From Chloroflexota bacterium (GTDB lineage Bacteria; Chloroflexota; Limnocylindria; Limnocylindrales; CSP1-4), in contig JALOOH010000022.1 in NCBI GenBank assembly GCA_025454515.1, positions 1 to 45,066 on the forward strand: a DNA stretch of 45,066 bases, in the 5' to 3' direction. Positions 712 through 14,758 of the stretch are shown here, in pieces (positions within the stretch are counted from its first letter, which is position 1; every line of letters starts with the position of its first letter). The position numbers were made by a program, and so were the translations under genes. Under the pieces are notes generated by a model. It saw nothing but the letters and a program-made list of their open reading frames with translations. It searched no databases and had not been told where the DNA came from.

Positions 712-1509
712 TCAGTCCGCCGACGGCCGCGTACCGCCGGATGCCAGGATCGGCTCCCCGCGTCGCAGGGCGCGCTGGCGGTCCGACCACATCCGCAGGC
801 GGAGCGACCAGAAGTCCTTCACCGCGCGCCACACGACGGAGACCTTCGCCCCCGTCTGCGAGCCGGCCGTCCTCGGGTGATGCGGGACGCCCACCTCCAC
901 GACGCTCCGGCCGCTCGCCCGCAGCTTGATGAGCATCTCCGCCGAGAAGAACGCCCCGCCGGACGCGACGCGGATCCCGTCGAGGGCCTCGCGCCGGAAG
1001 AGCTTGCACGCGCAGTCCACGTCGGTCACGCGCAGGCCGAACCAGACGCGGTTCGCGAACCGGTAGATCCGCGCGTACGCCGTCCGGACGAACGGGTCGG
1101 CGCGCTTGATCCTGAAGCCGACGACCACGTCCGGATGGTCGGCCTCCTCCATCCGGGCGGACAGCCGACCCAGGTCGGCGACCCGGAACTGGCGGTCGCC
1201 GTCGGTGAACGCGATGTGCGCGTAGCGGGACGCCCGGAAGCCCGACCGGAGGGCCGCGCCATACCCCAGGTTCGTCGGGTGGTGGACGGCCCGGACGACG
1301 CCCGGGTGCGCGGCCGCGAGCCGGTCGGCGATGCGCGGCGTGGCGTCGCGGGACCCGTCGTCCACGATGACGATCTCGAATCGCTCCGCGAGGGACGGCA
1401 GCGTCGCGAGCGCCTCGTCCACGAGGGGCTCCAGGTTGGCCTCCTCGTCGTGGGCCGGGAAGAAGTACGAGAGCTCCGGCAGGCGGGCCGGGGCGGCGGG
1501 CGCGGTCAT
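712..1509 (-). CDS. Glycosyltransferase family 2 (dolichyl-phosphate-mannose-synthase-like)
   Basis: MTAPAAPARLPELSYFFPAHDEEANLEPLVDEAL...IVIVDDGSRDATPRIADRLA...NLGYGAALRSGFRA...FTDGDRQF; GT-A fold motifs. Confidence 0.9.
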   Translation of the reverse strand: MTAPAAPARLPELSYFFPAHDEEANLEPLVDEALATLPSLAERFEIVIVDDGSRDATPRIADRLAAAHPGVVRAVHHPTNLGYGAALRSGFRASRYAHIAFTDGDRQFRVADLGRLSARMEEADHPDVVVGFRIKRADPFVRTAYARIYRFANRVWFGLRVTDVDCACKLFRREALDGIRVASGGAFFSAEMLIKLRASGRSVVEVGVPHHPRTAGSQTGAKVSVVWRAVKDFWSLRLRMWSDRQRALRRGEPILASGGTRPSAD

Positions 1510-3113
1510 GGCGTGGCTCCTCGGTCCGATGCGACCCGGTAGACGGTCTGGTTCCCCGCGACGAAGACCGGCTCGAGCACGAACGCCTCCTCGAGGTCCC
1601 GCAGGTCCGGCCAGCCCGGGATCACGTACACGGGTCGCTCCGGGAGATCGGCGCGGATGACGTCCGCCATGTCGCCCAGACCCTCGTCGAGCCGCGTCCG
1701 GTCGTCCACGATCCGCAGGTCGCCGCGGCGGCCCTCCACGATGGTCCCATACCAGAGCGGGGTCGAGTAGCTCCACCAGCTCACGACGGTGGCGTCGGGC
1801 TCGAACGCCGCGAAGGCGGACTCGACGAACGAGCGCGCGTCGAGGATGCCGACCTCGCTCGCCCGACGCTCCGACGCCGGGAGGCGTGCGGCCTGGGGGA
1901 GGACGAGCGCGACCGCGAGCAGGGCCGCGGCGACCGCGCCGGCGACGCCGGCCGGGGCAGGTCCGGCCGACGCGCGGGGACGGCGCGCCGCGCCCTCCAC
2001 GAGCTCCACGATCCACCCGGCGCCGACGACGAGCCAGCTCACCGCGACGATCGCCGGCCCCAGGTGGTAGCGGTCGATCTCCGCGTTGTCGTAGACCGCG
2101 GCGAAGACGAGGGTGATGACGAAGGCGGGCACCGTGAGGAGTGCGTACCGGGGCCGACGGATCGCCGTCACCACGGCCGCCGGGACGGCCGCGATGGCGA
2201 GGAGCCCCAGCTGGCCGGTCATCGCGTCCACCATGGCGCGAAGGGTGTCGAGCGGTCGCGCGAGCGGATCCCCCAGGGAGCCGCGGAACTGCTCTCCCAG
2301 CACGATGTACCAGAAGCCGTCCCACGTGCCGGGGCGCGCGTAGATGAGCGGGCGATCCAGCGCGACCGCGAGGGGCAGCTGGAGGTACGCGAGCGCCGCG
2401 ACCCCGAGGACGGTGACGGCGCACCCGAGGAGCATGCGCGGCCGCAGCAGGATCCGCGGCTCGGTGGCCAGGACGAACAGCGCGATCCCCGGGGCGACGA
2501 GGAGCATGAGCGCCTGGTTGCCCAGCGACGCGCCGTAGACGGCCGCGGCGGCGACGAGCCAGCGGTCCGTGCGGTCCAGGCCGGCCCGGCGACGGTCGCC
2601 CCAGACGACGAGCAGCAGCAGCACGACGCCGAGGAGGAGGGCGTGCAGCGCGTGGGGGTCGGCGTGGGTCGCGAGGTACCAGGCCTCGGGCATCAGGGCG
2701 ACGACGAGCCCGCCCGCGAGCGCGAGGACGGGCCGCTCCGTCAGCCGCCCGAACAGGAGCGTGGCGACCGCGGCCGCCCCGCCGATGAGCAGCGCGTTCA
2801 GCAGGTTCATGACGAACGCGGGCGAGCCGAACGGCTGGAGGACGACCGACGCGAGCCACCCGAGCGCGACGTACGTTGGGTAGCCGGTCGGGTGGGCGGT
2901 GCCGAAGACCGGACCGACGGTCTGCATCTCCCCGGTGTCCCAGAACGCGACGCCGGGGAGCAGGTGGAGCCACCCGAGCGCGAACGCGACGAGGCCGGCG
3001 ACGAGGGCGGCCGCGACGAGCGCGCGGGCGCGGCCCGGGTCGTCGACGGGGGCCGGCTCGCCGACGCGGCCGGACGGCGCCGTCGCGTCCCCGCCGGCGG
3101 GCGACCCGGTCAC
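1506..3113 (-). CDS. DUF2723-like multi-pass membrane protein
   Basis: GWLHLLPGVAFWDTGEMQTVGPVFGTAHPTGYPTYVALGWL with many TM segments; GTG start overlaps the upstream stop (3110-3113) and its stop overlaps the GT2 start (1506-1509). Confidence 0.8.
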   Translation of the reverse strand: MTGSPAGGDATAPSGRVGEPAPVDDPGRARALVAAALVAGLVAFALGWLHLLPGVAFWDTGEMQTVGPVFGTAHPTGYPTYVALGWLASVVLQPFGSPAFVMNLLNALLIGGAAAVATLLFGRLTERPVLALAGGLVVALMPEAWYLATHADPHALHALLLGVVLLLLVVWGDRRRAGLDRTDRWLVAAAAVYGASLGNQALMLLVAPGIALFVLATEPRILLRPRMLLGCAVTVLGVAALAYLQLPLAVALDRPLIYARPGTWDGFWYIVLGEQFRGSLGDPLARPLDTLRAMVDAMTGQLGLLAIAAVPAAVVTAIRRPRYALLTVPAFVITLVFAAVYDNAEIDRYHLGPAIVAVSWLVVGAGWIVELVEGAARRPRASAGPAPAGVAGAVAAALLAVALVLPQAARLPASERRASEVGILDARSFVESAFAAFEPDATVVSWWSYSTPLWYGTIVEGRRGDLRIVDDRTRLDEGLGDMADVIRADLPERPVYVIPGWPDLRDLEEAFVLEPVFVAGNQTVYRVASDRGATP

Positions 3114-4537: not shown

Positions 4538-7500
4538 ATGGAGGGTGCGACCGCGGAGACCGGGACGACGAGGACCGGGAGCGACTACCGCGCGATCGCG
4601 ATCCTCGTCGCGGTCGGGATCGCCCTCCGGCTCATCATCGCATACGTCCTCCTCGAGCCGGGTTCGGGCTTCGGCGTGGACGTCGCGGCGTTCCGCTACT
4701 GGGCGGACAACCTCGCCGCGTACGGGCCCTTCGGCTTCTACGACCGCGGGTTCTTCGCCGACTACACCCCGGGCTACCTGTACATCCTCTGGCTCGTCGG
4801 GATCGTGGGCAGCTTCTTCGGAGGCGCGGGCGACCTCATCAAGCTGCCGCCGATCCTCGCCGACGGGGCGCTCGCGTTCGTGGTCTGGTGGATGGTCCGC
4901 GACATCGGCGGCGGCCGGCGCGCGGCGCTCATCGGTGCGGCGCTCGTCCTGTTCAACCCGGTCACCTGGTTCGACAGCGCGGTCTGGGGCCAGGTGGACT
5001 CGGTCGGGACGGTCGTCCTGCTCCTCGCCGTCCGGCAGCTCTGGAGGGGGCGGATGATCTCCGCCACGGTCCTCACGACCGTCGCCGCGATCATCAAGCC
5101 GCAGTTCGGGATCCTCATCCCGATCGCCGCTGCCCTCATCCTCCACCGGTACCTCGTGACCCGGCCGCATCGCGACGGCCCCCCGGGGATCGCGTGGCGG
5201 TGGCTCGCGCGCGTCGGGGTCCGCCGCCCGTCCCGCGAGGGCCTCGCCGATCTCGCCGGCGTCCTCGTCGCCGGGATCGGGACGGCCTTCCTGCTCTCGG
5301 TGCCGTTCGCGCTCATGCCGTGGGACCTCGCCCGGAAGATCGTCACGACGGCCGCGCAGTACTCGTACCTGACGGTCAACGCCTACAACCCGTGGGCGCT
5401 GCTCTCGCTTGACGTCGGGGGCGTGGTGAACGGCCTCGCGGCGAACGGCACGTGGGTGCTCGACGTCGCTCGCGACCCCGGCCAGCCCTTCTACTCCTTC
5501 GGCCCGGTCCCGGCGATCGCCGTGGGCACGGCCCTGCTCCTCGCGTTCATCGCCGTGCTCTGCGCGATCGTGTGGCGGCGCGACGATCGCCGGACGCTCC
5601 TCGTGGTCCTCACCGTCATGGCGATCGGTTTCTTCGTCCTGCCGACCCGCGTGCACGAGCGCTACCTGTACCCGGCCTTCGCGCTCGGCGCGATCCTCGC
5701 CGCCACGTCGACGCGCTGGCGGGTGGCGTACGTGGTCCTCGCGATCGCGAGCTTCCTCAACCTCTACGCGATCCTCACGCACCCGTTCTACGACAACCCG
5801 GGGATCTCCGACTGGCTGGGGATCGGCGACCTCGTCCGCTCTCCCGGCGGCGTGGCGGTCGTCGCCATCGCCCACGTCGGCGTCTTCCTCTGGTCCCTCA
5901 CGCGGCTGCGTCGAAGCGCCGTCGAGCAGGACGCGGAGGAGGCGCGCGCGGACCTGCTCGCCGAGGAGGCCGTCGACGCGATCGCGCTGGGCGACGCCGC
6001 CGTGCAGGGCGGCGATGCGGCCGCACGCCCCCCGCGCGTGCCGCCCGCGTCCGACGGCGCCGCCGCTGCCGCGGCCGCGACCGCCGCCGGGGCAGCGACC
6101 GCCGCCACGTGGGACGAGGACCGCCCGCCCGGCGACGCACGGGACGACGCGTGGGACGAGGAGCCCGACGACATCGCGTCCGGGGACGAGCCCGAACGCC
6201 GCCGCGGGATCCCGGGATGGCTGCGCGGGCTCGGTCGGTACCGGACGCACGACCGGTCGGCCCTCCTCGTGCGCGAACGTGGCGGCCGCCTCGACCGGCT
6301 CGACCTCTGGATCCTGTTCGTCCTCGTCGTGGCCGCGCTCGTGCTCCGCACGTACCGCCTCTCCGAGCCGTACCGGATGCACTTCGACGAGGTCTACCAC
6401 GCGCGCACCGCTACGGAGTTCCTCCAGTTCTGGCGGTACGGAGAGCCGCACGAGATCTACGAGTTCACCCATCCGCACCTCGCGAAGTACGCGATCGCGC
6501 TGGGGATCATGGCCTTCGGCAACGACCGGGTCGTCGCCACGAGCGACACGGGCACCCCCGTCGCGGACGCCGCGATCGAGGAGGTCTGGGACGACGGGCT
6601 GACCGCGACCGCCACTGGTGGCGGCCGGCTCTACCTCGCCACGGGCGCGACGGTCGATGCCTACGACCTCGCGAGCCGGGCGCGCGTCGCGACGATCGAG
6701 GCGCCGGGGGCGGCCGCCGTCGCCGTGGACGAGTCATCCCACCGGCTCCTCATCGGCACCCGCAGCGGGACGGTGCTCACGCTCGACACGATGTCCGCGC
6801 TCGAGGCCCCGCGGACCGAGGACGACGTCGGCGTGGCCGACCCCGCCCCGGACGTCCTGGCGACCCTGGGCGCGCCGATCGTGCGGCTGTGGGTGACGCC
6901 CGACGGGACGACGATCGCCGCGGCGCTCGAGGATGACGTCCTCGTGACCCTCGACGCGTTCTCCGGGGAGGAGCTCGGGCGGACCACGATCCCGGGACTC
7001 GGCGGGATCTCCGACGGCGGCTCCGCGCCGTCGATCGTCGTCGACACGTCCGGCGTCACGGACGCCAGGGCGCTCGCCGCGGAGCTGTTCCGCGTCGCCG
7101 GCCTCGACGAGGCGTCCACGGTCGAGCGGCTCGAGGCAGGTGCAGGAGGGCCCGTCGTCCTCGCCGGGGGCCTCGACGGCGCCGTGAAGACCGCTGTCGA
7201 GGACGCGATCGCCGCCGGCACCCTCCCGGGGGTCTCCGTGCAGGACCGCGCCCGGCTTGCCGTGGCGTCCGCCGCCGGCATCGACTTCGTGGACCCGGCG
7301 GACGCGAGCGTCACGGACACGGTCACGCTCCCCGACGCCGCAGCCGCGAGCGACCTGGCGAAGGTGACGGGCGTCGGGAACCCCGCGCTGTACGCCGTCG
7401 GGGGCCGCTCGCTGTGGCGCGTGGACCTCGGCACGGACGCCGGTACGTCGCCGCCAGCCGTGACCCGCACGCTCGCGATGCCGGGCGAGGTCCGGCGGGT

Positions 7501-9973
7501 GCTGTTCGACGACGCCACCCAGCAGGTGCACGTCCTGGGGCGGACGCCGGACGGATCCGCCGACACGATCTATGTCGTCGAGCCGAACGGGGTGACCGTC
7601 TATGCGGACGCGCGCCTGCCGTTCGATGCGGTCGCCTGGGCTTTGGATTCGGACGAGCAGCACCCCGCGAGCGACCGGCAGCAGATCCTCGCGTTCGCCG
7701 GGAGCGGCGCGTCGGCGGCCGTCTCCGCCGGGGCGCACGCGTTCGCCTGGCGGCTCCCGGGCGTCATCTTCGGCGCGCTGACGGCCGGCGTTCTCTTCCT
7801 GCTCCTGCGCATGCTCTTCCGCCGCCGGGCCGTCGCGGTGGTCGCGGGGATCCTCGTCCTCGCCGACGGGATGATGTTCGTCCAGTCGCGGATCGCGATG
7901 AACGACGTCTACGTCGGCTTCTTCGTGCTCGCGGCCTTCGCGCTGTTCGCCGCGCTGTGGACCGGCCGGCTGCGCGGCTGGCTCGCGTTCGCCCTCGTGA
8001 TGCCGCTCGTGGGGGTGCTGTTGGGGCTCGGCCTCGCGTCGAAGTGGGTCGCGCTGTACGCGCTCGGGGGGATCGGGATCCTCATCCTCATCCGGTCGGC
8101 GCTCGGAAGGGTCCTGCTCGTCCTGGGCCTGGCGGCGATCAGCGCGACGCTCGGCTACATGGCGATCGCCACGAGCCCGGACGCGACGACGAGCAGCGGG
8201 AACCTCTTCTTCCTCGCGATGATGATCGGGCTCACGCTCCTGGCCGTCGTGGTCACCGTGCTGCGGCCCGTCGCGTGGACGCTCGACGAGATGCGGTTCG
8301 CCGTCTACGTGCCGGGCGCCCTCGGCATCGCCGGCGCGCTCGTCGCCTTCGCGATGGGCATCGGGCAGCTCCCGCCCGCCGGCGAGCCGTCGGCCGGCCT
8401 CATCGTCCTGGCGATCTCCGGCGCTCTCGTCGCCCTGTCGCTCCTCGCGGTCGTCGCGTTCCGCGTCGGCGCGCGCTACGGCATGGGCCCGCTCGCCCCG
8501 CCGCCCGCCGCGGACGACCCCGCGAGCCTGCTCCCGCCCGCCGACCCGGCGCCGGAGGGCTGGCTCCACTTCGGCTCCGGCTGGGGGCTCCCGGCCGTCT
8601 GGCTCGTGGTGAGCCTCGCGCTCGTACCGGTGGCGGTGTACGTCGCGAGCTACATCCCGTGGGTCGCGCTCGGCAACAGGTTCACCGAGGGCTTCCCGGC
8701 GGCGAACGCCGGCCAGACGCTCCTGGACCTGACACGGTCGATGTACGACTACCACAACAACCTGCGCGCGACGCACGCCGCCTCGTCGCCGTGGTGGGCG
8801 TGGCCGTTCGACCTCAAGCCGGTCTGGTTCTACCAGGGGAGCTTCGACGGCACGTCCGCGGCCATCTACGACTCCGGGAACCTGGGGATCTGGTGGATGG
8901 GCGTCGTCGCGATGGCCTTCGTCGCGTGGCAGTCGTTCCGCCGGCGGAGCCTCGCGCTCGCGCTCATCGCCGTCGGCTTCTTCGTCATGTGGCTGCCCTG
9001 GGTCCGGATCGACCGTGCGACCTTCCAGTACCACTACTACGTCGCGCTGATCTTCCTCATCGCCGCGGTCGCGTACCTCATCGCGGACGTGTGGCACGGG
9101 CCGTCGAGGCGGACATGGCTGCTCGTGCGGGTCGCGGCGGCCATCGCGGTCATGGGGCCGGCCCTCATGTGGCTGTTCCGTCTCCCGCTCTGCGCGATCG
9201 TGGGGGTCGAGAAGGCCTATGCGGGCTCCCCGGCCTGCGCCCCCACCGTGGGCCAGCTCGTCGTGACGCAGCGCATCGGGGCGATCGTCGTCGTCCTGGT
9301 CGTCACCGGGATCCTCGTCGCGTGGCAGATGCTCGCGCTCGAGCGCGCCGCACGCGACGCGCGGGAGGGCCGCGTCCCGCGCGAGGAGGCCCGCCTCCGC
9401 CGCGACCGCCACCTCTTCGCGATCGCCCTCATCGCGGCAGCCGGCGCCGCCGGCCTCGTGATGACCGGCTTCCTGAGCGACAGCGCGCCGCTCCTCGAGC
9501 AGGACGGGATCTACCCGGAGCTGATCGCCCTCGCCGCGCTCGTCCCGCTCGGGATCTGCGCGTACGTCATCGTCACAGCGCGCGACGCGCGCCGGTTCGC
9601 GCTCGGCTTCATCTGGGCCGTGGCGCTGCTCTTCGTGTTCTTCTACCCGAACATCTCGGCGCTGCCGCTGCCGTCGCAGCTCTTCAACGCGTACCAGGGG
9701 ATCCTGCCCACCTGGCTCTACGTCTTCCAGTTCCCCGTGAACACGGACCCGCCCGTGACCGTGAAGCTGCTGGACGTGTGGCCGGCCGTGCTCTTCGTTT
9801 CGCTCCTCGCGACGTCCGCGGTCGTGGCCTACAGCACGTGGTCGTGGCGCGTGACGCTCGCGGAGCGTGCGGCCGAGCGGGGCGCCGCTCCGGGCGAGGG
9901 AGAGGCTCCGGGCGAGGGAGAGGCTCCGGGCGAGGGAGAGGCTCCGGGCGAGGGAGAGGCTCCGGGCGTCTGA
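4538..9973 (+). CDS. 1811-aa double GT-C protein: N-terminal PIG-M/GT87-like mannosyltransferase module, acidic/Ala-rich linker, C-terminal protein O-mannosyltransferase (GT39) module split by a beta-propeller-like insert
   Basis: One uninterrupted ORF. N-module: FADYTPGYLYILWLVGIVG...NPVTWFDSAVWGQVDSVG. C-module: YRMHFDEVYHARTATEF...THPHLAKYAIALGIMAFGND//AFAWRLPGVIFGALTAGVLF...MMFVQSRIAMNDVYVGFF...GLASKWVALYALGG; C-terminal (APGEGE)4. Confidence 0.85.
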   Translation: MEGATAETGTTRTGSDYRAIAILVAVGIALRLIIAYVLLEPGSGFGVDVAAFRYWADNLAAYGPFGFYDRGFFADYTPGYLYILWLVGIVGSFFGGAGDLIKLPPILADGALAFVVWWMVRDIGGGRRAALIGAALVLFNPVTWFDSAVWGQVDSVGTVVLLLAVRQLWRGRMISATVLTTVAAIIKPQFGILIPIAAALILHRYLVTRPHRDGPPGIAWRWLARVGVRRPSREGLADLAGVLVAGIGTAFLLSVPFALMPWDLARKIVTTAAQYSYLTVNAYNPWALLSLDVGGVVNGLAANGTWVLDVARDPGQPFYSFGPVPAIAVGTALLLAFIAVLCAIVWRRDDRRTLLVVLTVMAIGFFVLPTRVHERYLYPAFALGAILAATSTRWRVAYVVLAIASFLNLYAILTHPFYDNPGISDWLGIGDLVRSPGGVAVVAIAHVGVFLWSLTRLRRSAVEQDAEEARADLLAEEAVDAIALGDAAVQGGDAAARPPRVPPASDGAAAAAAATAAGAATAATWDEDRPPGDARDDAWDEEPDDIASGDEPERRRGIPGWLRGLGRYRTHDRSALLVRERGGRLDRLDLWILFVLVVAALVLRTYRLSEPYRMHFDEVYHARTATEFLQFWRYGEPHEIYEFTHPHLAKYAIALGIMAFGNDRVVATSDTGTPVADAAIEEVWDDGLTATATGGGRLYLATGATVDAYDLASRARVATIEAPGAAAVAVDESSHRLLIGTRSGTVLTLDTMSALEAPRTEDDVGVADPAPDVLATLGAPIVRLWVTPDGTTIAAALEDDVLVTLDAFSGEELGRTTIPGLGGISDGGSAPSIVVDTSGVTDARALAAELFRVAGLDEASTVERLEAGAGGPVVLAGGLDGAVKTAVEDAIAAGTLPGVSVQDRARLAVASAAGIDFVDPADASVTDTVTLPDAAAASDLAKVTGVGNPALYAVGGRSLWRVDLGTDAGTSPPAVTRTLAMPGEVRRVLFDDATQQVHVLGRTPDGSADTIYVVEPNGVTVYADARLPFDAVAWALDSDEQHPASDRQQILAFAGSGASAAVSAGAHAFAWRLPGVIFGALTAGVLFLLLRMLFRRRAVAVVAGILVLADGMMFVQSRIAMNDVYVGFFVLAAFALFAALWTGRLRGWLAFALVMPLVGVLLGLGLASKWVALYALGGIGILILIRSALGRVLLVLGLAAISATLGYMAIATSPDATTSSGNLFFLAMMIGLTLLAVVVTVLRPVAWTLDEMRFAVYVPGALGIAGALVAFAMGIGQLPPAGEPSAGLIVLAISGALVALSLLAVVAFRVGARYGMGPLAPPPAADDPASLLPPADPAPEGWLHFGSGWGLPAVWLVVSLALVPVAVYVASYIPWVALGNRFTEGFPAANAGQTLLDLTRSMYDYHNNLRATHAASSPWWAWPFDLKPVWFYQGSFDGTSAAIYDSGNLGIWWMGVVAMAFVAWQSFRRRSLALALIAVGFFVMWLPWVRIDRATFQYHYYVALIFLIAAVAYLIADVWHGPSRRTWLLVRVAAAIAVMGPALMWLFRLPLCAIVGVEKAYAGSPACAPTVGQLVVTQRIGAIVVVLVVTGILVAWQMLALERAARDAREGRVPREEARLRRDRHLFAIALIAAAGAAGLVMTGFLSDSAPLLEQDGIYPELIALAALVPLGICAYVIVTARDARRFALGFIWAVALLFVFFYPNISALPLPSQLFNAYQGILPTWLYVFQFPVNTDPPVTVKLLDVWPAVLFVSLLATSAVVAYSTWSWRVTLAERAAERGAAPGEGEAPGEGEAPGEGEAPGEGEAPGV
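6523..7737 (+). other. ~400-aa beta-propeller/YVTN-like domain inserted inside the PMT module
   Basis: Repeated strand-rich motifs (GGRLYLATGATVDAYDLASRARVATIEA; SSHRLLIGTRSGTVLTLDT; DGTTIAAALEDDVLVTLDAFSGEELGRTTIPG; VTLPDAAAASDLAKVTGVGNPALYAVGGRSLWRVDL) between the FGND and FAWRLP segments, which are nearly contiguous in ordinary PMTs. Confidence 0.7.
9887..9968 (+). repeat. 18-bp in-frame tandem repeat (gctccgggcgagggagag), 4 full copies plus 10 bp
   Basis: Read directly; encodes (APGEGE)4-APG at the C-terminus of the GT-C/PMT protein. Confidence 0.95.
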
Positions 9974-10027: not shown

Positions 10028-11218
10028 TCAGGCCCCCGGCCGGGGTGCCGCGGCAGGCGCCGGCGGGACCTCCGCGGTGAAGTCGCGCGGGAGCGACCCC
10101 TGGGCCGCCGTGCGCCGGATCACGAAGCCGTAGTAGTCGTCCACCCGCCGGGCGACCCCGCGCCAGCTGAACTCCTCCGCGCGCTCGCGGCCGCTCGCGC
10201 CCATCCGCTCGCGGAGCGCCGGGTCGTCCAGGAGGCGCCCGATCGCCGCCGCCAGCGCGTCCCGGTCCCCCGGCGGCACGAGCAGCGCCTGCTCGCCGCG
10301 CCGCACGACCCCCTTGTACCCGTGGATGTCGCTGCACACGATCGGGACCCCGGCCGCCATCGCCTCCAGCAGGACGATGCCGAAGGATTCGCGCCCAGTC
10401 GCGGGCGAGACGAAGACGTCCGCCGTGCGGAACAGCTGTGCCTTCTCGTCGTCGCTCACGCGGCCGAGGAACTCCACGCCCTGGAGGCGGCGCGTGGCCA
10501 CGTACCGGCGGCACTCGCGCTCCTGGGGGCCGCCCCCCACGAGGAGCAGGCGCGTATCCTCGCGGCCCTCGCGCCGCAGGACGCGGAACGCCTTGAGGAG
10601 GTGGATCAGGCCCTTGCGCTCCTCGAACCGCCCGACGAACAGGATGTTCCGGGCCCCGTCCTGCCACCGGGTCAGCGGGACGGCCCGCTGGAACCGGTCC
10701 ACGTCCACCCCGTTGGGGATGACCTTGTAATCGCCCGGGAAGTAGCGGTCGATGAAGTGACGCGCGGCGGCGCTCACCGCGATCCGGCCGTGGAGGCGCG
10801 CCGCGTAGCCGGCGAGCGCCCGCCTGCCGAACTCGTACGAGGGGGAGAATCCGGCGTACGCGTGGAAGGTCGCGACGTTCACGCTCCGCGACTCCTTGAG
10901 CACGGACAGCGACAGGAACGGCACGAACGGCTCGTGGAAGTGGAGCAGGTCGAACCGCTCGGCCTCGAGCATCGCCCGCGCCTGCCGGTCGAAGTTCGGC
11001 GAGATCGTGATCGTGCCCACGGAGCCGTTGGCCGGGAAGCTGAATCCCTTGCCGAGGCGGACGACGTCGCCCTCGGAGCCCCTCTGCGTCCCGTGGCTGC
11101 TGCTGATGATGCGGACCTGGTGGTCCCGGACGCGCAGCTCCTCGTACAGGTGGCGGACGTGGTCGTTCACGCCCCCGGGGAGCGGGTACACGTACGGGGT
11201 GACGAGGCCGATCTTCAT
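10028..11218 (-). CDS. GT4 glycosyltransferase, PimA-like phosphatidylinositol mannosyltransferase
   Basis: MKIGLVTPYVYPLPGGVNDHVRHLYEELRVRDHQVRIISS...FHEPFVPFLSLSVLKES...FVGRFEERKGLIHLLKAF...SPATGRESFGIVLLEAMAAGVPIVCSDIHGYKGVV. Confidence 0.88.
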   Translation of the reverse strand: MKIGLVTPYVYPLPGGVNDHVRHLYEELRVRDHQVRIISSSHGTQRGSEGDVVRLGKGFSFPANGSVGTITISPNFDRQARAMLEAERFDLLHFHEPFVPFLSLSVLKESRSVNVATFHAYAGFSPSYEFGRRALAGYAARLHGRIAVSAAARHFIDRYFPGDYKVIPNGVDVDRFQRAVPLTRWQDGARNILFVGRFEERKGLIHLLKAFRVLRREGREDTRLLLVGGGPQERECRRYVATRRLQGVEFLGRVSDDEKAQLFRTADVFVSPATGRESFGIVLLEAMAAGVPIVCSDIHGYKGVVRRGEQALLVPPGDRDALAAAIGRLLDDPALRERMGASGRERAEEFSWRGVARRVDDYYGFVIRRTAAQGSLPRDFTAEVPPAPAAAPRPGA

Positions 11219-11230
11219 CGTCGGGCCCCA

Positions 11231-12025
11231 TCATCCCGCCCCGACGGGCTCACGCCAGTGCCGTCCGGCGGGCCACCGCCCTCGCGTCCCATCGCCGCGC
11301 ACGAGGCCCGCGATCCCGTCGCGCCAGCCCCGTCCGTACTTGGCGAGCTGTCTGCCGAAGGTGGGCAGCTGCTCGAGCGTGCCGTGGAACGCCCCGGCCC
11401 ACCGCGTCTCGCCGGCCTCGATCGCGGCGCGCAGATCGTCGGGGGTCGAGCCCCGGAAGAGCGTCAGCCCGGTCGCGACGGCGGCGGCTCGGTGCGCGTC
11501 GCTGCTGCCGAGCGCGGGGAGGGCCAGCTCCTCCGCGAGCCGGACGGCGGTGGCGTGACCCACGCGCCCGAACGTCGTCGGGTTGAACGCCTCGATCGCG
11601 TCGAAGCGGTGGCGCGGGTCCGGTTCGGCCGCCAGGCGTCGGATGGAGCGCGCGGAGACGCACAGCGGGTACGGGGTGGCCGGGTGCGCGGCGACGGCGA
11701 TCCCTCCCTGGTCGTGGATGCGGGCGAGCGTCTCGCGCAGCGAGCGCAGCGGCGGCACCCGCTCCGTCAGGAAGAGCCCCAGGACGTGGCCGCCGCGCGT
11801 CGAGACCTCCTCGGCGACGACGACCCGGACGGGCATCCCGCGGGCCTCGGCGATCCTGCTGGCGGCCTCTGCCGCGTCGATCCGATCGTGGTCGGCGATC
11901 GCGATGACGTCCACCGACGCCATCGCCTCGACGTGCTCGAGGATGGTCACGACGCCGTCCACCCCGTCGGACGCGAGCGTGTGGACGTGCAGGTCCGCGC
12001 GCCCGAGCCGGACATGCGCGGTCAT
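11231..12025 (-). CDS. PHP-domain metal-dependent phosphoesterase
   Basis: RADLHVHTLASDGVDGVVTILEH...IAIADHDRIDAAEAA...AAHPATPY...GSSDAH. Confidence 0.9.
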   Translation of the reverse strand: MTAHVRLGRADLHVHTLASDGVDGVVTILEHVEAMASVDVIAIADHDRIDAAEAASRIAEARGMPVRVVVAEEVSTRGGHVLGLFLTERVPPLRSLRETLARIHDQGGIAVAAHPATPYPLCVSARSIRRLAAEPDPRHRFDAIEAFNPTTFGRVGHATAVRLAEELALPALGSSDAHRAAAVATGLTLFRGSTPDDLRAAIEAGETRWAGAFHGTLEQLPTFGRQLAKYGRGWRDGIAGLVRGDGTRGRWPAGRHWREPVGAG

Positions 12026-13041
12026 CGATCGCCGCCGCCCGGCGGGCGCCCTCCCGCCCCGGCGGCGAGGTCCGGCCAGATCGGATGGAACACCGCCCAC
12101 CACTGCTCCGGCGACTGGGCGACCGACTCCTCGATGAGCCGGGCGGTCTGCTCGAGGAATCGCACGACACGGACGCGGAGCCGCCCCTCGGCAGGGACCG
12201 GGACCTCGCGCATCCACCCGCGGTACCGACCGTCCCCCACCCGGACGACGGACTCCCAGAACACGCGCGCCCCGGTGTCCGCCGCGAGGATCGCCGCCCC
12301 CGTCGGCAGCGGGGCCGGGTGGCCGAAGAGCTCGACCTCCGTGCCCCCGCCTGAGATGTCGCGGTCCACGACGAGGAGCGCGGCCCCGCCCTCCTCGATC
12401 GCCTCCTTGAGTCGTCGCCGCGCCTGCGCGAGGCCCACGAGCTCGATGCCGGTCCCGGACCTCGTGCGCGCCATCCACGCCTGCATCTCGGGGTCGTCCA
12501 CCGTCTCCATCACGCCGACGACCGGCGGCCGCCGCTCGTGCCCGCCGACCCACGCGAGGATCTCCACCGGGCCGATGTGCGCGCCGATGTAGATGACGCC
12601 CCGCGGCTCGGCGAACGAGGCCGCCACGGTCGCCGGCGTCACCACGTGGAGCCGCTCGACCACGTACGCCTCGGAGAGGGTCGTCGCGCGCAGGGTCTCG
12701 ACGTAGTAGCGCGCGAGGTGCCTGTACGCGGCGCGGACCAGCGACTCGAGCGCCCGCGGATCCGAGGCCGCGCGCCGGGCTCGGGCCGGTCCTCGACCCT
12801 CTGCGGCGAGCCACGCGCAGACGCGGCCGAGGTTCGCGCGCGCCATCGCGGCGCGGCCGGGCGTCGCGCGGTACCAGAGCTCGCCGACCGAGTCGGCGGC
12901 GGCGAGCAGGGGCGTCTCCGGCAGCCGGCACGCGACGGCCGTCGCGCCCGTCAGCGCGCGCGCCCGGAGGCGCTGCGCCCGCGTCCCGCGCCCGCCCAGG
13001 ACGTCCTCGAGGTCGCCCGACGCGCCCGGCAGGTCCGTCAC
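12022..13041 (-). CDS. Lysophospholipid acyltransferase family (LpxL/HtrB/PatA-like)
   Basis: GVIYIGAHIGPVEILAWVGG...RRRLKEAIEEGGAALLVVDRDISGGGTEVELFGHPAPLPTGAAILAADTGARVF; GTG start overlaps upstream stop. Confidence 0.85.
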   Translation of the reverse strand: MTDLPGASGDLEDVLGGRGTRAQRLRARALTGATAVACRLPETPLLAAADSVGELWYRATPGRAAMARANLGRVCAWLAAEGRGPARARRAASDPRALESLVRAAYRHLARYYVETLRATTLSEAYVVERLHVVTPATVAASFAEPRGVIYIGAHIGPVEILAWVGGHERRPPVVGVMETVDDPEMQAWMARTRSGTGIELVGLAQARRRLKEAIEEGGAALLVVDRDISGGGTEVELFGHPAPLPTGAAILAADTGARVFWESVVRVGDGRYRGWMREVPVPAEGRLRVRVVRFLEQTARLIEESVAQSPEQWWAVFHPIWPDLAAGAGGRPPGGGDR

Positions 13042-14042
13042 GGCCGTCCCGCGCCTCCGGGGTCCAGCCCGTACTCGGGGAGACGCGCGAGCAGTGCGGC
13101 GCGCTCCTCCTCGCTCGTCGGCCACATCGACTTGAAGACCCACCACTGGTCCGGAGTGCGGCGGATCGCGGACCCGAGCGCGTCGGCGATCGCCTGCGTC
13201 GCGCGCGCGACCTCGGCGGGCTCCGTCGACGCCACCTGCACGACGGGGCCGATCCAGCCGGCGTGCCAGCCGTCCCTGCGCCTGTGCATCGCGAACGGCG
13301 CGATGACCGCCCCCGTCCGCGCGGCGAGGACGGCCGGGCCGGCCGGGAGCGTCGTCCATTCGCCGAGGAACCGCGTGGGGACGCCGTCCGGCCTGTACCC
13401 CCAGTCCACGAGGAGCGCGACGGCCTCGCGGCGCCGGAGCGCCCCGTAGAGCTCGCGGAGGTTCCGCCACGGGAGGAGCCGCACTCCCCACCGCTCCCGC
13501 TCCACCCTGAGGAGCTCGAAGAGGTCCTTGTACTCCGTGTCGTCCGCGATGACGGAGATCGCCCAGCCGCGGTCGGCGATGGCGGCCGCGCCGATCTCGT
13601 TGTACGCCATGTGCGCGGCGACGATGATGACGCCCCGTCCCATGTCGAAGGCCTTCTGCAGATCGCCGGCCGCCGCCGTGTCCACGTTCGAGAGGATCTC
13701 GCTGCGCCCGAGCGCCGGCATGCGCATGAGGTCCACGACATAGCCGGCGTAGTTGCGGTACATGCGGCGGGCGAGCCGGTCCACGCGGCGGTCCGACGGG
13801 TCCGTCCCGAGGACTCGCGCGAGGCTCGCGCGCGACGCCCGGCGGCGCGCCGGCCACGCGAGGTACGTGCCCTGCGCGAGGACCCCGCCGACGCCCTTCG
13901 ACGCGGCTTCGGGGACGCGGCCGAGGGCCCAGGCCGCGCCACGGTAGGCCCGCACGACGGCCCGCTCGCGGACGCGCGTGACGAGGCCGCGGTCCTCGCC
14001 CGCGGCCCCCGCGCCCCGGGTCATCCCGCGCGCCGACGTCAC
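13038..14042 (-). CDS. Second lysophospholipid acyltransferase family protein (PatA-like)
   Basis: RMYRNYAGYVVDLMRMPAL...RGVIIVAAHMAYNEIGAAAI...VALLVDWGYRPDGVPTRFLGEWTTLPAGPAVLAARTGAVIAPF; GTGA overlap with upstream stop. Confidence 0.85.
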   Translation of the reverse strand: MTSARGMTRGAGAAGEDRGLVTRVRERAVVRAYRGAAWALGRVPEAASKGVGGVLAQGTYLAWPARRRASRASLARVLGTDPSDRRVDRLARRMYRNYAGYVVDLMRMPALGRSEILSNVDTAAAGDLQKAFDMGRGVIIVAAHMAYNEIGAAAIADRGWAISVIADDTEYKDLFELLRVERERWGVRLLPWRNLRELYGALRRREAVALLVDWGYRPDGVPTRFLGEWTTLPAGPAVLAARTGAVIAPFAMHRRRDGWHAGWIGPVVQVASTEPAEVARATQAIADALGSAIRRTPDQWWVFKSMWPTSEEERAALLARLPEYGLDPGGAGRP

Positions 14043-14758
14043 CGCTTCGCCGCGCTCGCCTGCGCCCGGACGCTCGCGACGCGCTGGACGACCGTGATCG
14101 TGGCGAGGACGAAGATGGCGCCCACGCCGAGGAGGAACGGCGCGTTGCCGGCGGTCGTGAGGCCGGCCGTGGGATCGGCGGGATCCCACGGAGCGACGCC
14201 ACCGAGGATGCCGGTGAGGATCAGCGCGACGGTCAGGACGACGAGGCGGATCTCGCGGGGGGCGAGGCCCACGCTCGCGAGGCCGGAGCCCGGCGAGAAG
14301 CCGAGCCCCTCCGCGCGGGCGCGGGCGTAGCTGACCATGAAGGCCGACGAGAGGGCGAGGATCGACAGCGTCGCGCCGAGGTCGTTGCCGGCGGCCATGC
14401 ACCCGACGGCGACCCCGACCCACGTGATGGCCTCGCCCCAGCGGTCGAACGTGGAATCGAAGAACGCGCCGAGCGGGCCGACCTTCCCGGTGGCCCGGGC
14501 GAGCGTCCCGTCGAACATGTCGAAGACGCCGCCGACCATCACGACGATCCCGGCGACCAGCCAGAGCTGGAACCCCGCGAGGAGTGCCGCCACGATCGTG
14601 ATCCCGAACCCGAGGAGCGTGAGCCCGTTCGGCGTGAGCCCGAGGCGCCCGAAGAAGAGGGCGATGGGCTCGAAGACCTTCTTCACGGCCTGCCGCTGCT
14701 CGGCCGACGTGAGCGAGCCACTGCGCTCGCGACCGGGGGTCCCGCCCTGCGATGTCAT
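14039..14758 (-). CDS. CDP-alcohol phosphatidyltransferase (PgsA/phosphatidylinositol-phosphate-synthase-like)
   Basis: CDP-alcohol motif DMFDGTLARATGKVGPLGAFFDSTFDR; multiple TM segments. Confidence 0.92.
   Translation of the reverse strand: MTSQGGTPGRERSGSLTSAEQRQAVKKVFEPIALFFGRLGLTPNGLTLLGFGITIVAALLAGFQLWLVAGIVVMVGGVFDMFDGTLARATGKVGPLGAFFDSTFDRWGEAITWVGVAVGCMAAGNDLGATLSILALSSAFMVSYARARAEGLGFSPGSGLASVGLAPREIRLVVLTVALILTGILGGVAPWDPADPTAGLTTAGNAPFLLGVGAIFVLATITVVQRVASVRAQASAAKR

Follow-up and report, generated by a model that had tools for sequence, protein, structure and literature searches.

A predicted seven-bladed β-propeller within the first extracytoplasmic loop of a class-wide bacterial PMT family

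A tandem GT-C/PMT gene and its neighbours

Candidatus Limnocylindria (Chloroflexota) are uncultured bacteria of soil and water. CSP1-4, the lineage analysed here, is a member of this class (PMC10608941). The window, a 45,066-nucleotide stretch of one of its contigs, holds an unbroken reading frame whose product has a GT-C module at its N terminus, connected by a linker to a protein O-mannosyltransferase (PMT) module that is itself split by a large insertion (Table 1). The intact frame and the same architecture in dozens of independent MAGs rule out an assembly artefact or frame error. The N-terminal module gives a weak Pfam match to Alg6_Alg8 (25.7 bits, cut-off 25), is also GT87-like and retains, among other residues, invariant D28, E354 and R355 across the aligned homologs; a PDB sequence search with this module gave no match. 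Its fusion to the PMT is class-wide. At the other end of the gene, an 18-bp exact tandem repeat of 4.6 copies (window 9,887–9,968) encodes the C-terminal GEGEAP tail of the protein.

Table 1. Features at the locus, in window coordinates.
Feature	Position	Strand	Basis
GT2, probable polyprenyl-phosphate-sugar synthase (ArnC/DPMS-like)	715..1500	−	PF00535 1.4e-27; PDB matches
TMEM260-like (PF11028) GT-C gene, divergent	1509..3080 (5′ end provisional)	−	Pfam 2.4e-22
Tandem GT-C/propeller-PMT gene	4538..9973	+	1811 aa; ATG 4538; class-wide homologs with the same architecture
N-terminal GT-C module, residues 21–465	4598..5932	+	Pfam; alignment of 20 class-wide homologs
Start of PMT module, residues from 588: TM1, DE motif D617/E618, juxtamembrane helices, HPHLAKYAIALGIMAFGN	6299..6523	+	Invariant D, E, HP, K; model helices
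Inserted seven-bladed β-propeller (predicted) including nested module, residues 663–1067	6524..7738	+	AlphaFold2, Foldseek, profile matches
Nested α/β module, PBP_dimer-like, residues 822–914	7001..7279	+	PDB profile matches; hhalign; own-genome PBP
Rest of PMT module: TM2 onward, EL2 Rx4D, PMT_4TMC, EL5 RxxF	7739..9787	+	PF16192; invariant columns; residue check
PIM-like gene run, convergent, downstream: GT4, PHP domain, PIM-acyltransferase-like, PIP-synthase-like	10031–14758	−	

The PMT module (residues 588–1750) scores above the Pfam cut-offs for both PF02366 (46.5 bits, cut-off 22.7) and, in its C-terminal half, PF16192 (PMT_4TMC; 51.8 bits, cut-off 32.4; 9.6e-14). Profile A1 retrieves the solved fungal Pmt4 (9i5k) and yeast Pmt1 by sequence. 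The residue pairs of the GT39 PMT motif are all in place, with D617/E618 in the first extracytoplasmic loop (EL1), R1118/D1123 in EL2 and R1493/F1496 in EL5; across 43 homologs the columns of D617, D1123 and R1493 do not vary, and that of F1496 shows at least 90% conservation. The catalytic residues of the mycobacterial enzyme MtPMT, namely D74, D176, R441 and Y444 (PMC12331936), correspond to D617, D1123, R1493 and F1496, respectively; the catalytic residues of yeast Pmt are likewise preserved. The start of the module, where the homolog alignment has its invariant D, E, HP and K, is modelled by AlphaFold2 with helices H2–18, H31–47 and H61–73. On the NCBIfam equivalog NF058602 (PrMnsylTfPmt), the module scores 35.5 bits, below the cut-off of 800, placing the protein in the PMT superfamily but outside that equivalog. 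Enzymes of the MtPMT/Rv1002c type (GT39) thus have their transmembrane layout, DE motif, EL2 Rx4D, EL5 RxxF/Y and both Pfam families in common with this protein, which differs from them by 405 additional residues in EL1 and by the N-terminal GT-C module.

Upstream, on the opposite strand, the GT2 gene and the TMEM260-like gene (715–3,080) form a conserved divergent pair beside the PMT. The GT2 product matches ArnC (9hwj) and the dolichol-P-mannose synthase DPMS (5mlz) in the PDB; a GT2 lies upstream in 19 of 20 relatives, in divergent orientation in 18, and a TMEM260-like gene in 13 of the 20. Two different families of O-mannosyltransferase type adjoin in bacteria here. Downstream, a GT4 gene adjoins the PMT in 59 of 80 named loci, these being the best 80 of 369 relatives.

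Placement and fold of the insertion

The insertion splits EL1 between the juxtamembrane HPHLAK..FGN helix and the AFAWRLPG of TM2. The first-pass annotation had reported that about 400 residues part these two PMT motifs, and we measure 405, at 6,524–7,738, one base from the 6,523–7,737 proposed. It had also held that the motifs are nearly adjacent in ordinary PMTs, as proves to be the case: in ordinary PMTs, including those of other Chloroflexota, HPPLGK and the FGDN helix end are joined directly to SFGWR, for example in locus L173 ('...THPPLGKLLIADSILIFGDNSFGWRF'), and in the solved Pmt4 structure 9i5k the equivalent segments lie ~32 residues apart. Aligned PMT modules of the class (n = 43) carry insertions of 287–498 residues at the identical junction. 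HMM-measured junctions hold 335–525 residues in 72 of 72 measurable named relatives among the best 80 of 369 (73 values were obtained, of which one, −495, was set aside as a domain mis-assignment). Occupation of the same junction in all of these modules and relatives excludes chance.

Several lines of evidence identify the insert as a propeller. First, AlphaFold2 modelled the PMT module from 43 sequences with high confidence (pLDDT 89.1, pTM 0.88), in the order TM1, two loop helices, strand domain and TM2; the confidence of this whole-module model suggests that the propeller holds a fixed position. Second, the insert modelled alone (pLDDT 90.8, pTM 0.89) has ~28 propeller strands beyond the nested module, the number in a closed toroid of seven four-stranded blades. 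Third, Foldseek returned as its best folds WD40 propellers, proteins known to be seven-bladed, at probability 1.00 and with TM-scores of up to 0.79 on the target; with the whole module as query, fungal Pmt4 appeared at rank 14. Fourth, a profile of the insert (A2) matched YncE at 1.3e-9, together with WD40 proteins. In the window sequence of the insert itself, no Pfam repeat family passes. A low-complexity or chance strand pattern is ruled out by the AlphaFold2 models and Foldseek. The strand-rich repeats originally read as a compact extracytoplasmic propeller in the loop of the DE motif are thus borne out by the models of module and insert, Foldseek, the profiles and family-wide conservation, and we regard the predicted seven-bladed architecture as solid. 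The insert shares its fold and strand pattern with the seven-bladed WD40/YVTN proteins PkwA (5yzv), TUP1, WDR5 and YncE but, unlike those propellers, sits inside the loop of a membrane enzyme.

In the AlphaFold2 model, a second unit with a β-α-α-β-α-β arrangement is nested between two long propeller strands. When this unit alone was searched against PDB profiles, its best single-domain natural matches were penicillin-binding proteins (PBPs): 4ovd at 9.6e-7, followed by 4ye5 and 7rcz, the top row of the search being a repeat protein without a significant single stretch. Compared by hhalign with the PBP_dimer region at the N terminus of PBPs from the phylum, the unit scored 99.1%, a value flattered by the choice of the PBP rows by similarity; the PDB search, in which PBP rows were not preselected, is the independent test. 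The class B PBP of the same genome also matches. A direct Pfam search of the window sequence of the nested module gave no family, PF03717 included, at E up to 1. Profile and profile–profile comparison relate the module to the PBP_dimer (PF03717) region of class B PBPs, from which it differs in being a single unit of ~90 residues, without a transpeptidase, within a propeller. The nested module is present in most family members and absent from many, whose inserts measure ~290–350 residues. At two loci, L031 and L032, the nested module is 147 residues long and includes an extended stretch that is probably a coiled coil.

Bacterial PMTs have been described (PMC12331936) as having no counterpart of the large soluble domain found in eukaryotic PMTs. 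The eukaryotic MIR domain is a β-trefoil inserted between TM7 and TM8, which in Pmt4 covers and uncovers the active site and is required for catalysis (PMC12705809). Eukaryotic Pmt1/2 and Pmt4 share with the present protein the catalytic core (9i5k, 6p25) and the presence of a large β domain in an extracytoplasmic loop; the MIR domain, however, occupies the TM7–TM8 loop, whereas the propeller lies between TM1 and TM2, and Pfam finds no MIR domain in this protein. In the open-licence PMC literature, we found no published description of a propeller in a PMT or of a large domain at this PMT position, so the suggestion that the architecture is undescribed has stood so far, and the propeller-PMT is apparently a real, undescribed variant of a known enzyme family.

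Distribution, origin and selection

In a set of 300 Chloroflexota genomes, the insert profile matches 38 of 39 class members; in the lone exception (G039), the gene is present only as a fragment at a contig edge. Among the matches listed from outside the class, none spans the insert model with its flanks. A wider spread through the phylum was rejected: the outside matches listed (best 1.5e-8) are partial and cover only inner stretches of the model that are propeller-like or PBP-like, and neither of two such loci inspected (G166 and G228) has a PMT core. A scan of genome contigs gave 369 relatives, the best 80 of which are all Chloroflexota. Class membership was assigned from taxon names (Chloroflexota, Candidatus Limnocylindrales and CSP1-4) together with the labels of kinship that the genome search supplied. 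Of the long-frame PF02366 loci L191–L206, only L198 matched the core HMM, and the non-matching ones were left out.

In a maximum-likelihood tree built from the PMT core with the insert removed, the 43 insert-bearing rows form one side of a branch with 100/99 support, beside uninterrupted PMTs of other classes. This single split indicates one gain of the insert, with no loss among the 43 rows. Separate ordinary PMTs (L180 and L190) also occur in one family of the class (f4), where the propeller form therefore makes up a lineage of its own. The insert is retained under purifying selection: within a genus, its dN/dS is 0.27–0.39, against 0.09–0.27 for the core, and its identity 57–75%, against 79–92%. 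Conserved residues of the insert (E1015, P1016, D1037, H998 and Y952) concentrate in its last third, near the return to the membrane.

Possible roles of the propeller

We favour the reading that the gene encodes a protein O-mannosyltransferase dependent on polyprenyl-phosphate-mannose, in which the EL1 propeller recruits acceptor proteins or gates access to the active site. Membership in the PMT superfamily, the place of the insert, its fold, its one gain in a single class and the purifying selection on it are computed results, whereas mannose transfer and the position and role of the propeller are inferred; we give the combined proposal a probability of roughly 0.5. With one end fixed to the juxtamembrane helix that lies behind the DE motif and the other to TM2, the propeller would lie above or next to the active-site groove on the periplasmic side, where it could recruit acceptor proteins or open and close the route to the active site. 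Its role would resemble that ascribed to the eukaryotic MIR domain, with a different fold and in a different loop. The adjacent GT2, the probable maker of the sugar donor, is consistent with mannose transfer, and the nested PBP_dimer-like module, where present, may offer a further binding surface.

This reading draws on the retained counterparts of the MtPMT catalytic residues, the confident model and propeller fold, the single gain without loss, the dN/dS of the insert, the conserved residues near the membrane return and the upstream GT2 genes. A β-domain gate has a precedent in the Pmt4 MIR domain (PMC12705809), and the double tether in the loop of the DE motif would place the propeller well for a similar job. 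Counting against recruitment or gating is the faster evolution of the insert relative to the core; against a protein acceptor, the PIM-like glycolipid genes nearby, which make a lipid or glycan acceptor possible. A bolder version, in which the class independently evolved an acceptor-selecting or gating domain convergent with MIR and a PBP-type module later tied glycosylation to envelope growth, is speculative and we think it improbable.

The same PIM-like genes lead to one of two competing proposals that we consider unlikely, in which the acceptor of the PMT-fold mannosyltransferase is a glycolipid or a glycan of the cell surface, PIM/lipomannan-like in kind, and that glycan is bound by the propeller. 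The downstream genes resembling PIP synthase, PIM acyltransferase and GT4, the frequency of GT4 beside the PMT and the tandem N-terminal GT-C module, a hint of multi-step glycan assembly, speak for it. Characterized enzymes of the Pmt1/Pmt4 type use Ser/Thr acceptors, however, and it is these enzymes that the protein matches in sequence and fold, along with PF16192; the adjoining TMEM260-like gene, a second of O-mannosyltransferase type, also tells against a glycan acceptor.

The other proposal, to which we assign a similarly low likelihood, sees the propeller chiefly as a scaffold by which the PMT docks into a larger complex of the envelope (the machinery of secretion, of the cell wall or of division), without contact with acceptors. 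β-Propellers are common protein–protein platforms, and the nested module, which would be one contact, is similar to the N-terminal domain found in class B PBPs; but because many members lack that module, it cannot account for the general function, and a terminus would have sufficed for a mere dock, whereas the insert lies in the catalytic loop. Least probable is a structural lid or stabilizer without a specific binding role, fixed by chance in the class ancestor: the fast evolution and variable length (287–525 residues) of the insert would suit it, but purifying selection, the absence of loss in 43 tree rows and the near-invariant polar residues E1015 and D1037 argue otherwise.

For acceptor choice by bacterial PMTs, the WW-like EL4 motif of MtPMT is, to our knowledge, the one described example. 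A class-wide propeller that was gained once and lies next to the catalytic Asp amounts to a natural experiment in how GT-C enzymes choose acceptors and are gated, and it shows that EL1 tolerates a 400-residue domain. Its size and independent fold open the propeller to direct tests with binding assays and cryo-EM, in which it would be a built-in fiducial.

Finally, divergent second propeller-PMT paralogs with very long frames, of 2,616 and 3,001–3,713 residues, were seen in two genomes, at loci L038 (G008:C7:173000-181500) and L039 (G020:C67:4500-12500).
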